Below are positions 1,984 to 5,435 of a stretch of 5,471 bases of DNA, piece after piece (position 1 is the first letter of the stretch; every line of letters begins with the position of its first letter). Source of the stretch: Acidimicrobiaceae bacterium (GTDB lineage: Bacteria > Actinomycetota > Acidimicrobiia > Acidimicrobiales > RAAP-2); contig PLSY01000305.1 of assembly GCA_003164275.1 (NCBI GenBank), positions 1 to 5,471 of the forward strand, given 5' to 3'. The translations under genes and the position numbers were made by a program. The notes beneath the pieces are model-generated. The model made no database searches. It saw nothing but the letters and a program-made list of their open reading frames with translations, and was not told the origin of the DNA.

Positions 1984-2465
1984 CCGACAGCACTGATATA
2001 GGTGCCGACGCCACCGGAGATCAGCCGAAGAGGAAGGTCTCGGTGTCTCTACAACCTGGCGAATCCACCGACGACTTCGCCGCCCGAGCTATGAGAATGC
2101 TGACGGCTGCGAGTGAAGGCCACGTGATCGAGAGGGTCCTCAGATCGGCCCCCGAGGAGTGGGCCACCCTACCGAGCGACCGGTGGCTGGAAGCTGAACT
2201 CAAGGCAATGCCAGACCTGCATGTCCGGCTGACTTCGCTGGCCACTGGAGATGGAGGATCGGTAGCCCACCTTGACATCGAATCGAGAGGCGAACTCGTA
2301 CACGATGATTGGGGCGATGAACACGAAAGCATCTATCTCCCGAAGTCAGACGATGGCCACATTTCGACCGGGCGGGCGATCCTCTGGAGCTTGGTCCACG
2401 AGATCCGAGGCGTGGGCGACCTCTACGACTACATCTTCGAGCGGAGCGGCCTCATCATCAGATAG
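1980..2465 (+). CDS. Hypothetical acidic protein, coupled to the four-cysteine gene
   Basis: This 161-residue protein is not recognised. About 1-20 look disordered and polar. A conserved-looking core begins at about 19 (KVSVSLQPGESTDDFAARAM) and runs as predicted helices to about 77. Then comes a beta-like section (HVRLTSLATGDGGSVAHLDI, about 81-100), an acidic loop (DDWGDEHES) and a C-terminal helix (ILWSLVHEIRGVGDLYDYIF, about 134-153). There are no membrane segments, signal peptide or known catalytic motifs. The ATG at 1980 overlaps the TGA of the previous gene by four bases, so this is the second gene of the same operon. It ends 36 bp before the left terminus of the mobile element. A partner or regulator of the zinc protein is a guess from gene order alone. 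Confidence 0.75.
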   Translation: MTDSTDIGADATGDQPKRKVSVSLQPGESTDDFAARAMRMLTAASEGHVIERVLRSAPEEWATLPSDRWLEAELKAMPDLHVRLTSLATGDGGSVAHLDIESRGELVHDDWGDEHESIYLPKSDDGHISTGRAILWSLVHEIRGVGDLYDYIFERSGLIIR

Positions 2466-2501
2466 CGCTTCTCCGAGCCGCACCCTGCCCCCTACCGGCA
2501 C

Positions 2502-2530
2502 TTACACGGGTGATCCGCACCTTGGACTGA
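2502..2530 (+). repeat. Left terminal inverted repeat
   Basis: TTACACGGGTG (2502-2512), then a 4-base spacer ATCC, then GCACCTTGGACTGA (2517-2530). The two blocks match the reverse complement of 4943-4953 (11 of 11) and 4923-4936 (13 of 14). Matching stops at the outer side (C2501 against G), which suggests the element boundary is near 2502. The last nine bases also form part of the stem-loop 2522-2564. Confidence 0.82.
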
Positions 2531-2564
2531 CCACACGAGAAACCTTTCTCGTGTGGAGGTCCAA
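2522..2564 (+). promoter_or_regulatory. Large palindrome between the left end and the first recombinase gene
   Basis: CCACACGAGAAA (2531-2542), CC, TTTCTCGTGTGG (2545-2556) is a perfect 12-bp inverted repeat with only two central bases. Outside it, TTGGAC (2522-2527) pairs with GTCCAA (2559-2564) across a 3/2-nt internal loop, for 18 bp in total. The structure ends two bases before the AGGAGG of the recombinase gene. No T-run follows, so it is not a standard terminator. It can be read in two ways: an RNA hairpin that hinders translation of read-through mRNA, as some transposons use, or a recombinase-binding or crossover site (9-bp arms around the 8-bp centre AAACCTTT). Neither is proven. Confidence 0.75.
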
Positions 2565-2566
2565 CC

Positions 2567-2572
2567 AGGAGG
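2567..2572 (+). promoter_or_regulatory. Strong ribosome binding site of the first recombinase
   Basis: AGGAGG lies 6 bases before ATG 2579-2581 and begins two bases after the end of the stem-loop at 2564. The near-consensus site fixes the start. Its closeness to the hairpin is notable, because a folded leader would leave the site unpaired but sterically crowded. Confidence 0.75.
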
Positions 2573-2578
2573 TGCGAA

Positions 2579-3622
2579 ATGAAGTGGTGTCCGGTATTCG
2601 AATGTTCCGTCGGTCCTGATGGTCAGAAGACCTATCGGGTCGGCCACGAGCTGGTCGACGAGTTCTTGGAGTTCGCGTCAGCCCGGTGCCGACCAAGCAC
2701 GGTGCGGGCCTATGCCCACGATCTGAAGGTCTTCTTCGGGTTCGTCAATATGGAGCCGTCCGAGGTCATGCCGAGGGACGTGCTGTCCTTCATCGCCAAC
2801 CAGCAGAGGTCGAGGGCCAGCGCCGGCAACGTGGTCCGGATCAGCGACGGAGGTGCCGGGCTGTCACCGGCAACAGTGAAGAGGCGCCTCGCTGCCGTCT
2901 CCAGCCTCTTCAACTATCTGGTCATCCGAGGCGACACCGGAGTCGAGGTCAATCCGGTGCCTCGGGGCATGCCGACCAGGAGGAGTCGTCACCGTGACCA
3001 ACGGGGCCTGCCTCTGGTCCGAGGAGTGCGGCGACTGCCCCGGATCCTCGATGCCGACGAGGTGGAGCTCTTGATGTCGGCCTTTCGGACCGATCGGGAC
3101 CGGGCCATGGCCCAAGCCATGCTTCTCGGAGGTCTGCGTCGATGCGAGGTCCTGGGGCTTCGACTGGAGGACCTCCGGGTGGGCGAGAAGCAGCTCTTCA
3201 TCGCCGACGGCAAAGGAGGGCATCAACGGCTGGTCCCGATCTCGCCGACGTTCTTCGCCACCGTGGCCGACTACTTGAACCGGGAGCGACCACCTGATGC
3301 GGCGACTAACCACGTCTTCGTCGCCCTCCAGGGGCCGAGGCGAGGACATGCGTTGTCTTCCGAGGGACTGGACGAGGTCTTCAGCTCAGCCCGAGCCCGA
3401 GCCGGACTGGTGCACGGGACGTGCCACGAACTGCGCCACACCTGCTTCACCAGGCTGAAGGAGGCGGGCATGGCCATCGAAGCCATCCAGGCCCTGGCCG
3501 GGCATCGCTCGATTGCCTCTACCCGGATCTATCTTCATCTGGGAGGCGACTGGTTGGCCAACGAGTATCGCCGGGCCGCCGAGGCCATCGACGCCCAGGC
3601 GCAGATGGGGGTGGCCCAATGA
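2579..3622 (+). CDS. Tyrosine recombinase/integrase, first of the pair
   Basis: This 347-residue DNA strand-exchange enzyme has the two usual domains. The N-terminal SAM-like core-binding domain is about 20-118 (HELVDEFLEFASARCRPSTV onward), and the catalytic domain about 155-335 (LPRILDADEVELLMSAF onward). All active-site positions are visible: Arg187 (GLRRCE), Lys212 (GKGGHQR), His283 and Arg286 (HELRHT), His309 (AGHRSI) and nucleophile Tyr318 (TRIYLHL). The nine-residue His-Tyr spacing is normal for the family. A basic linker (about 128-154, PRGMPTRRSRHRDQRG) joins the domains. It resembles actinobacterial integrases that occur as adjacent pairs, from memory and not from a search. The length is typical of an intact enzyme. 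The stop overlaps the second recombinase by ATGA, implying coupled expression, and the two may act as a heteromeric complex on the element ends, by analogy with XerC/XerD. It may be controlled by the upstream hairpin. Confidence 0.95.
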   Translation: MKWCPVFECSVGPDGQKTYRVGHELVDEFLEFASARCRPSTVRAYAHDLKVFFGFVNMEPSEVMPRDVLSFIANQQRSRASAGNVVRISDGGAGLSPATVKRRLAAVSSLFNYLVIRGDTGVEVNPVPRGMPTRRSRHRDQRGLPLVRGVRRLPRILDADEVELLMSAFRTDRDRAMAQAMLLGGLRRCEVLGLRLEDLRVGEKQLFIADGKGGHQRLVPISPTFFATVADYLNRERPPDAATNHVFVALQGPRRGHALSSEGLDEVFSSARARAGLVHGTCHELRHTCFTRLKEAGMAIEAIQALAGHRSIASTRIYLHLGGDWLANEYRRAAEAIDAQAQMGVAQ

Positions 3623-4905
3623 GCGTCCTCTCGCCCCTTCCGTTTCCTGACGGCAACCCGCCTCGAGGTGTTCCCCGCCAGGAGGTGACGTGGACCGACG
3701 TGTTGATCCGAGCTCCGCAGATGGCAACCACCATGGCCCGCTACCTGGACCAACTCTCCGTTTCGGCTCGCCCGGCCACAGTCGACGCCACGGGTCTGGC
3801 CTTGCGATTCTTCGCCGCCCAAGTGACGCAGGATGACCCAACGTGTACTTGCGTCGCCGACATCGAGCGCCGCCACATCGAAAGCCACAAGCGCTGGATG
3901 GCCGCCCGTCCGGGCAAGCACGGCAAGCGGCTCTCCAACACCACAATCCGTCATCGTCTGAGCCTGCTCCGCACGTTCTTCGAGCGGGTCATCGAGTGGG
4001 ACTACGACGATGCTCCTCGGCGAGTGCCGATCTTCCCTGGGGACTTCCCGCAAGCCGACGAGGCATTACCGAAGTTCCTTGACGATCCGACGGCTGCCGT
4101 CTTCATGGCCGCTCTGGCCGAGGACCCCAATCGACGGCGGCGGCTGATGGTCGAGCTGCTGGCCCGGACCGGGATGCGGGCGGGTGAGCTCTCGATGCTC
4201 GAGGACGACGCCATGATCCGCCAGGGAGATACCTATTGGCTCCGCATTCCGGTCGGCAAACTGCACAACGACCGATATGTGCCTCTGCATCCGATCCTTG
4301 TCGACCTGATCGCTGACTACCGGGCAAAGCGCGGACCCACCCGGTCGGGTCGGCTCGTTGAGCGCAACGACGGGAAGCCATTCGACCGGAGGACGATCCA
4401 TCGCTATGTGGAAGCCGTGGCCAAACGGGCGGGGGTGGGCCACGTCCACCCCCATCAGCTCCGCCACACTCTGGCCACCCAGTCGATCAATCGAGGCATG
4501 AGCTTGGAGGCGATCGCCGCCTTGCTTGGACATCGGTCCATGCGCATGACGATGACCTATGCCCGGATCTCTGACAGGACTGTTGCCGATGAGTACTTCC
4601 GGGTGACCGAGGCCGTCGAGGCCAACTACGGGAGAACTGATGTGGTCCCGGACGAGGCGGTCGGGGCCAACATGCGACGACTCGCTGCCGACCATCGGCG
4701 GATGCTCGGCAATGGCATGTGCACACGACCGGTCGCCCTCGACTGCTCGTTCGAGTCAGCCTGTGAGCGCTGCAACTTCTTCGAGACCGGTCCGCAGTTC
4801 ATTCCGATCCTCCGCCGTCAACGCGACCATGCCACCGAACACGACCAGACAGATCGGGTCGTCCTCTTTGACCGCCTCCTGAAGGACGTCGACGGAGACC
4901 CGTGA
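3619..4905 (+). CDS. Tyrosine recombinase with C-terminal zinc-finger-like extension, second of the pair
   Basis: This 428-residue recombinase starts at ATG 3619, chosen because it overlaps the previous stop (ATGA) and the core domain begins soon after; the longer in-frame extension to GTG 3421 lies within the first gene and reads as out-of-frame sequence. The core-binding domain is about 25-135 (ARYLDQLSVSARPATVDATG, and the RLSNTTIRHRLSLLRTFFER helices). The catalytic domain is about 150-335 with Arg187 (TGMRAGE), Lys214 (VGKLHNDR), His279 and Arg282 (HPHQLRHT), His305 (LGHRSM) and Tyr314 (TMTYARI), a complete set. A further 90 residues follow, with Cys368, Cys376, Cys382 and Cys385 (GNGMCTRP, then CSFES-ACERCNFFET). 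This Cys arrangement, also seen in my recollection of TnpB-like partners of such pairs, suggests a zinc-bound tail for DNA or partner contact. A weak GGGGGTGG precedes the start, so coupling to the first gene is likely. The stop lies 17 bp before the inner edge of the right inverted repeat. Confidence 0.95.
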   Translation: MSVLSPLPFPDGNPPRGVPRQEVTWTDVLIRAPQMATTMARYLDQLSVSARPATVDATGLALRFFAAQVTQDDPTCTCVADIERRHIESHKRWMAARPGKHGKRLSNTTIRHRLSLLRTFFERVIEWDYDDAPRRVPIFPGDFPQADEALPKFLDDPTAAVFMAALAEDPNRRRRLMVELLARTGMRAGELSMLEDDAMIRQGDTYWLRIPVGKLHNDRYVPLHPILVDLIADYRAKRGPTRSGRLVERNDGKPFDRRTIHRYVEAVAKRAGVGHVHPHQLRHTLATQSINRGMSLEAIAALLGHRSMRMTMTYARISDRTVADEYFRVTEAVEANYGRTDVVPDEAVGANMRRLAADHRRMLGNGMCTRPVALDCSFESACERCNFFETGPQFIPILRRQRDHATEHDQTDRVVLFDRLLKDVDGDP

Positions 4906-4922
4906 GTGTGGTTCGATGAGGC

Positions 4923-4953
4923 TCAGTCCGAGGTGCATCAACCACCCGTGTAA
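4923..4953 (-). repeat. Right terminal inverted repeat
   Basis: Read on the minus strand from 4953, it gives TTACACGGGTG, a 6-base spacer GTTGAT, then GCACCTCGGACTGA ending at 4923. It is the inverted copy of the left end, with one mismatch (C for T) and a spacer two bases longer. It begins 17 bp after the stop of the second recombinase. Inward of it, the minus-strand ACCACAC (around 4905-4911) repeats the start of the left palindrome at a different spacing, but no palindrome like the one at the left end is found here. Confidence 0.82.
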
Positions 4954-4988
4954 CAACACATCCGGGCGTGTGGAAAAGTTGGAGTCCC

Positions 4989-5435
4989 ATGAGCATCGAC
5001 CCACCGTTCATTACCGAGTCGGACGGCACGACACGGAAGGGCACAATGGTCCATCCTGGCCGGGACTGGAACCTCGACCTCCAGAACCTTGAGCTGTCGT
5101 ACTTCCGCATCGACCACCAGACTTGTCTTCAGTTCGGAGACACTGTCATCCAGATTGGCTGTCCGCTCACACTCAAGGTGGAAGGCGAGACGTACGTGCT
5201 CGACGAGCCGCAAGATCTTGGACCCCTGCTCGGGCAGTATCCGGACACCTTGGCCACAGGAACGGTTGACGAAGATGGGACGCTTCGTCTCGCTTTTTGT
5301 CGGGGCTGGACCGTCGACGTTCCGCCGAACCCTCACTATGAGGCATGGCAGATCGCAGGCCCTGGCAATGCGCTGGTGGTCTGTCCACCAGACGGCGGCA
5401 GTCTCGCCGTCTGGGCCAACACGAAAGGCTCCTGA
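4989..5435 (+). CDS. DUF6188-like protein
   Basis: This 148-residue soluble protein of mostly beta structure lacks a signal peptide or membrane segment. It resembles DUF6188: after HPGRDW (22-27) comes a strand-rich stretch where FRIDHQTCLQFGDTVIQIGCPL (39-60) parallels the 'D-x-x-x-x-L-x-F' repeats of the family. Then come LGPLLGQ (77-83), the DGTLRLAFCRGWTVDVPP stretch (96-113), the signature YEAW (117-120), and a Gly-rich end with SLAVW (138-142). The call is from recognition of these motifs. DUF6188 proteins have no proven activity; some are found near polymorphic-toxin and immunity genes, but nothing here shows that. The start at 4989 has GGAG four bases before it. An alternative ATG at 5046 (129 residues, starting just before HPGRDW) has GGAAGGG four bases before it and is also credible. 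It lies 35 bp right of the element terminus. Confidence 0.8.
   Translation: MSIDPPFITESDGTTRKGTMVHPGRDWNLDLQNLELSYFRIDHQTCLQFGDTVIQIGCPLTLKVEGETYVLDEPQDLGPLLGQYPDTLATGTVDEDGTLRLAFCRGWTVDVPPNPHYEAWQIAGPGNALVVCPPDGGSLAVWANTKGS

Follow-up and report, generated by a model that had tools for sequence, protein, structure and literature searches.

The DNA analysed here (the window: 5,471 nt, contig PLSY01000305.1 of an Acidimicrobiaceae bacterium) contains a pair of overlapping tyrosine-recombinase genes enclosed by inverted repeats (Table 1). The products of gene 1 and gene 2 both match the Phage_integrase family (Pfam E 2e-31 and 7.9e-28, respectively), and the motifs GLR/GMR..E, GK, H.LRH, GH, and Y, which we take to be the usual catalytic motifs of tyrosine recombinases, are legible in both of them. 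The genes overlap by 4 bp in an ATGA arrangement, in which the start of gene 2 lies within the stop of gene 1; this arrangement occurs in 20 of 22 loci, the exceptions being L058, where gene 1 is broken, and L072. The dN/dS values of 0.14-0.18 obtained for both genes among the window and loci L008 and L009 indicate that they are maintained by purifying selection. Since only 77 bp separate gene 1 from the left end and 48 bp separate gene 2 from the right end, there is no room for cargo. The Pfam matches and these short distances confirm the original prediction of two overlapping, cargo-free recombinase genes.

Table 1. Features of the two-recombinase element and its borders (positions in the window).
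Feature	Position	Strand	Description
Two-recombinase element	2502..4953		2452 bp; two overlapping tyrosine-recombinase genes, inverted ends, cargo-free
Left crossover spacer (predicted)	2496..2501	+	CGGCAC; identical in L008, L009, L054; homology of window and L009 starts at 2496
Left terminal inverted repeat	2502..2530	+	Conserved end motif in the outer TTACACGGGTGATC; inner part forms one arm of predicted stem-loop
Stem-loop (predicted)	2516..2576	+	In 5' leader of gene 1; outer helix over part of Shine-Dalgarno AGGAGG
Gene 1	2579..3622	+	347-aa tyrosine recombinase, TnpA-like
Gene 2	3619..4905	+	428-aa tyrosine recombinase, TnpB-like; C-terminal Cys cluster, without long N-terminal extension
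Right terminal inverted repeat	4923..4953	-	
Right crossover spacer (predicted)	4954..4959	+	CAACAC; identical in L008, L009, L010; homology of window to L009 and L010 stops at 4959

The left block consists of TTACACGGGTG, ATCC, and GCACCTTGGACTGA, and the right block, read as the reverse complement, of TTACACGGGTG, GTTGAT, and GCACCTCGGACTGA, so that, apart from the 4- or 6-nt insert, 24 of 25 bases are identical. The local alignment score of the two ends (22, two 201-nt regions) was reached by none of 2000 dinucleotide-shuffled pairs (mean 11.7, standard deviation 2.0, maximum 21, i.e., one near miss), in agreement with the inverted blocks proposed earlier. Comparison with two loci from Acidimicrobiaceae metagenome-assembled genomes places the borders at these blocks: L008 is 78.7% identical to the window over positions 2486-4966 and L009 78.6% identical over positions 2496-4959, no other part of the window matches either locus at E <= 1e-3, and the partial locus L010 matches positions 4525-4959. 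In the right ends of these three loci the outer TTACACGGGTG is conserved and the inner GCACCTYGGACTGA part is not. Judging from its relatives, the crossover spacer is the 6 bp outside each block and not the variable spacer inside the blocks. The suggestion that this is a transposon-like unit with defined ends is thus borne out, as homology to L008 and L009 stops at the ends instead of continuing across them, and like ends recur at other copies of the gene pair. In a scan of 31 loci for such ends, both were found in 23 (elements of 2375-3089 bp; L001, L047, and L048 among them are copies of one element), only the right one in four (L005, L010, L059, and L066), only the left one in two (L060 and L061), and neither in L067 and L070; for L065 the second-ranked right hit (4.6) was taken, and for L064 and L069, each with two equally scoring hits, the outer one.

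Movement can be read from a relative carried by Rhodococcus plasmids. This element of 2950 bp is 100% identical across five records, and its protein 2 is 51.5% identical to that of the window. Six records match both flanks of its copy on plasmid pREL1 at >=99%; two of them are filled (NC_007491 and NZ_CP092102) and four are empty, of which L045 and L046 were read in sequence, and NZ_AP018735 and NZ_CP133328 are empty by coordinates and are not among the element matches. The empty site (L045 and L046) reads GAAGAAA-GTTGTC-GCAGC, and the filled site (L001) reads GAAGAAA-ATCATG-element-GTTGTC-GCAGC. Insertion without duplication or deletion of target bases is thereby shown for the Rhodococcus relative only. 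The empty site sits in an open frame reading ...EDVAILKAATTFFAGELDPRNR, and we interpret this as the final part of an IS3-type OrfA. In Gordonia plasmids, four sequences matching the Rhodococcus flank carry the annotation IS3 family transposase. On the Rhodococcus plasmids represented by L001, L047, and L048, the element seems to occupy one and the same position within genes for an IS3-type OrfA, as assigned from the reading frame in the case of L001 and from resemblance in the case of the other two.

The hexamers that border the Rhodococcus copies differ in their behavior. On the gene-1 side, ATCATG is present in all six printed copies (L001, L002, L003, L047, L048, and L049), next to three different left flanks, while the hexamer on the gene-2 side is GTTGTC, GACAAC, TTCGGC, or GACGCC. 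The Rhodococcus element carries the hexamer next to gene 1 along with it, and the hexamer next to gene 2 is supplied by the target. Read as its reverse complement, the GACAAC of L003 equals the empty-site hexamer, and it adjoins the same flank, which would fit an insertion in the opposite orientation followed by alteration of the other flank. Three copies of a 2117-bp relative on one 4.97-Mb contig of genome G936, which have different flanks and are 99.0-99.9% identical to each other in aligned pieces, agree with the same polarity: their left hexamer is GGGTAG in each case, and their right hexamers are GGGCCG, GGGCCG, and GGACCG. Proteins 2 and 1 of this relative are 54% and 58% identical, respectively, to those of the window. 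In these copies (L156, L157, and L158) the gene-2 frame is only 346 aa long, and its match to gene 2 of the window ends before the C-terminal Cys cluster. No empty site of the family was found via the flanks of L055, L008, L058, and one G936 copy, and in the sibling genome G009 the left flank of the G936 copy is matched only as far as 184 bp before the insertion.

With gene-1-proximal equated with intA- or tnpA-proximal, the polarity seen in Rhodococcus is the reverse of that reported for strand-biased circularizing integrative elements (SE) and Tn554. In SE, attL, on the intA side, is reported to receive the hexamer of the target and attR that of the donor, and in Tn554-related elements the 6 bp are copied from the left side of the donor to the new right side (PMC10214605, cited here, like PMC3414803 below, from the available parts of its text), whereas in the Rhodococcus relative the traveling hexamer stays on the left.

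Left and right spacers were also compared in 22 elements, leaving out L056, whose contig ends within the right spacer, and the loci with one end or none. Tyrosine recombinases usually require short homology beside one cleavage point. On the top strand, the two spacers agree at positions 1-6 in 17, 16, 15, 10, 8, and 13 elements, respectively. In the 11 non-redundant elements outside the window's clade, agreement is found in 30 of 33 cells at positions 1-3 (permuted mean 18.1; none of 20,000 permutations as high) and in 8 of 33 at positions 4-6 (permuted mean 7.3). For the six elements within the clade of the window, the figures are 16 of 18 cells at positions 4-6 (permuted mean 10.8; 305 of 20,000 permutations as high) and in 10 of 18 at positions 1-3 (permuted mean 9.2). 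The Rhodococcus copies show little homology between their left and right spacers. A hybrid left spacer with its first 3 bp derived from the target, prompted by the agreement at positions 1-3, was considered and dropped in view of the G936 copy L156, with GGG on the left and GGA on the right, and by the constant left hexamer of Rhodococcus.

The target is an imperfect palindrome, since the base preferences of 36 target arms are alike on both sides of the spacer: counted outward from the spacer, T occupies position 2 in 29 arms, and G occupies positions 5, 6, and 7 in 26, 23, and 26 arms. The window, L008, and L009 have both spacers in common and cannot serve as independent cases with regard to the origin of the hexamers. 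Element-free, target-like palindromes in related genomes do not settle which hexamer belongs to the target in the window's clade, because CGGCAC occurs in two of them (L099 and L138) and CAACAC in one (L110). A repeated sequence ending in CGATTCGCGAGTGACCCC (with one mismatch in L138), noted in L098, L099, L110, L137, and L138, lies at contig ends in L098, L099, and L110; in L099, L110, and L138 it is followed by the palindromic site with CGGCAC or CAACAC. It is perhaps the end of another mobile unit that uses the same kind of site.

The family placement of the two recombinases was analysed in a tree of 46 proteins, which has several long branches and an arbitrary root. All 17 gene-1 proteins group with TnpA of the Tn554 at L073 (support 85/82) and all 17 gene-2 proteins with TnpB (support 100/98), apart from an integron integrase and from the proteins of L077, which we take for a recombinase-in-trio (RIT) element from its three-recombinase layout. 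The window element shares with the L073 copy of Tn554 this TnpA/TnpB kinship, the gene order, and the 4-bp overlap, and insertion without target duplication, reported for Tn554, is also a property of the Rhodococcus relative. In contrast, Tn554 carries resistance cargo and TnpC (DUF6262, PF19776; detected on the Tn554 of L073, and below cut-off on L079), and the window element has neither, as the 48 bp between the stop of gene 2 and the right end leave no space for TnpC. Results of our analysis indicate that the window element is very probably a minimal Tn554-type site-specific transposon composed of a TnpA-like and a TnpB-like recombinase only. As a type, the element is mobile.

Such elements are of a kind already known; what is new here are the details of the ends, the polarity of the footprint, and perhaps the regulation. 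The original prediction assumed that all known relatives carry three genes, which is incorrect: Van Houdt et al. 2012 described a class of Tn554 relatives in actinobacteria, with two recombinases side by side (Famint36/41), and listed members without TnpC, including one on plasmid pREL1 (PMC3414803). The two-gene unit itself stands, therefore, but it is rather a member of a two-gene group than an oddity. The Rhodococcus copy L001 is located on pREL1, with no third gene annotated, and presumably corresponds to the listed pair, pREL1 being listed for two variants. The window element and that class have in common two adjacent recombinases without TnpC and differ in size, as one recombinase of the class is 611-828 aa long (PMC3414803) and gene 2 of the window encodes 428 aa. 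The cited text describes no ends, spacers, or targets for the class. Among the 17 gene-2 proteins of the tree, 15 are 409-446 aa and two are 592 and 611 aa long. The 592-aa protein, of L054 (genome G243), is 73% identical in its core to the 428-aa protein of the window, which indicates that the long N-terminal extension of the Tn554-like class was gained or lost within one clade.

SE elements resemble the window element in having two tyrosine recombinases, inverted ends (imperfect, 13-19 bp), and a 6-bp spacer, and IS3 insJ is one of their reported targets, SE-6945 being located in an insJ gene (PMC10214605). Their gene set, however, comprises intA, tfp, intB, and srap, of which tfp and srap are absent from the window element, with its 77 and 48 bp outside the genes, and their size (the first two examples measure 7.2 and 13.8 kb, and the median is 15.7 kb; PMC10214605) far exceeds 2452 bp. 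A further trait of SE is a circle that arises with strand bias and leaves no empty donor site. RIT elements likewise consist of overlapping tyrosine recombinases between inverted repeats, with three adjacent recombinases on other branches of the tree instead of two. A search of the literature, which was covered in part, returned no paper on Acidimicrobiia transposons with a tyrosine recombinase, and only dif/Xer work for two-tyrosine-recombinase transposons with inverted repeats in Actinobacteria. The movement of Tn554, SE, and RIT elements is still poorly explained, with a helper of the TnpC/Srap type reported as needed. Two-gene elements of about 2.1-3.1 kb make a very simple test system, as they encode two proteins, have fixed ends and real empty sites, and leave a 6-bp footprint that can be read; their shared end motif would let genome annotators flag them.

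At E <= 1e-100, matches were found in 13 of 298 genomes from the order and in 2 of 396 from the phylum. The family yielded 4 of 172 at E <= 1e-140 and the class, searched with a profile, 12 of 395 at E <= 1e-120; in one further family, 2 of 10 genomes matched. There is overlap between the samples, and the window's relative G001 is part of most of them. In a search with the gene 1 protein, 7888 of 7999 scored proteins, without their genomic context, matched at E <= 0.001, the best being 91% identical.

Several observations weigh against the assignment to a minimal, mobile Tn554-type element. Neither an empty site nor a second copy was found for the window element itself, its source genome lying outside the searched sequences, and no circle was seen. 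The end-scan matrix was built from ends picked by eye, including those of the window, so that independent support for the ends comes from the break of homology and from the copies and empty sites; some right ends are also weak in that scan (L009, L050, and L062 score only 6.6-10.1). The kinship of gene 1 with TnpA is only moderately supported by the tree, several branches of which are long. Because the spacers of the window's clade agree at positions 4-6 rather than at positions 1-3, the order of strands in this clade may differ from that in other elements. Finally, transposition of Tn554 is reported to depend on TnpC (PMC10214605), absent here, although TnpC has been regarded as possibly dispensable (PMC3414803).

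The lack of a third gene and of an empty site for the window, together with the broken gene 1 of L058, would also be expected if the element were an immobile fossil, i.e., a Tn554-like element stripped of TnpC and cargo. This is improbable, as the reading frames of both window genes are uninterrupted and purifying selection acts on them, the two-gene layout with its 4-bp overlap recurs, and near-identical copies occur several times in G936 and Rhodococcus. We regard derivation from a RIT element by loss of one of its three recombinases as a distinctly poorer explanation still. Adjacent, overlapping tyrosine recombinases between terminal inverted repeats are RIT-like, but in the tree the window genes fall with TnpA and TnpB of Tn554 and not with the L077 proteins, and the elements with both ends, 2375-3089 bp in length, have two genes; because the RIT branches are long, the exclusion is not a strong one. 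Least credible of all is a chromosomal Xer-like pair, or an integrase pair of a phage or an integrative mobilizable element, located by chance beside an inverted repeat. Both proteins do match the XerC and XerD models, far under their cut-offs, and weak partial matches occur in 355 phage records. None of these records, however, covers 80% of the gene 2 protein, two scans of viral contigs revealed no relative, like ends flank 23 of the 31 scanned loci in differing surroundings, and the inverted-repeat score was not matched by any shuffled pair.

For a minimal Tn554-type transposon, the two enzymes would act on a core formed by the outer target arm, the 6-bp spacer, and the inner end motif TTACACGGGTGATC, probably with one enzyme per half-site. 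The left and right ends would join, probably to a circle with one 6-bp spacer, which would then recombine with a roughly palindromic target of about gCCCnnaa-N6-ttnnGGGc. A fuller scheme, possible but as a whole short of probable, is that only the two tyrosine recombinases are needed, without a helper of the TnpC/Srap type; that integration uses the other strand than in SE and Tn554, which would make the left hexamer a permanent part of the element and the right hexamer a record of the target; and that the left end, in the window's clade, serves in addition as one arm of a stem-loop that damps read-through translation of the recombinases.

This stem-loop is predicted from the pairing of the inner repeat and the following bases with the gene 1 leader (fold z-score -5.16), and comparison of left ends supports such a structure in the window's clade. 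In nine left ends of the clade, 82.9% of cells are paired (shuffled 74.7), double-sided changes affect 11 of 24 pairs (shuffled 6.2; reached by 2 of 500), and the covariation score, which relatedness can inflate, is 0.373 versus 0.242 +/- 0.024 in shuffled alignments (0 of 500 as high) and <=0.181 when slid. The fold z-scores of the nine clade loci range from -1.9 to -5.1, and those of 12 other loci from -0.1 to -3.1. Pairing across the clade amounts to 91.2% in the inner helix and 63.5% in the outer one. As the predicted openness of the Shine-Dalgarno sequence is not lower in the clade (0.02-0.48) than in loci outside it (0.04-0.63), the sequence is only partly covered, and concealment of the ribosome-binding site is conjecture. 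Structure at the RNA level is favored, since G-U cells are more numerous on the + strand than on the - strand (27 vs. 12, blurred by misalignment, chiefly of L054). No Rfam family scored above threshold for the stem-loop, and a search of positions 2300-5100 revealed no consensus promoter or terminator. Damping of read-through translation is known from IS10, and the stem-loop may similarly damp translation of transcripts entering from outside.

In the window, the insertion is placed between two open frames, with no evident gene interrupted. The gene adjoining its right end (positions 4968-5435) encodes a DUF6188 protein (PF19686).

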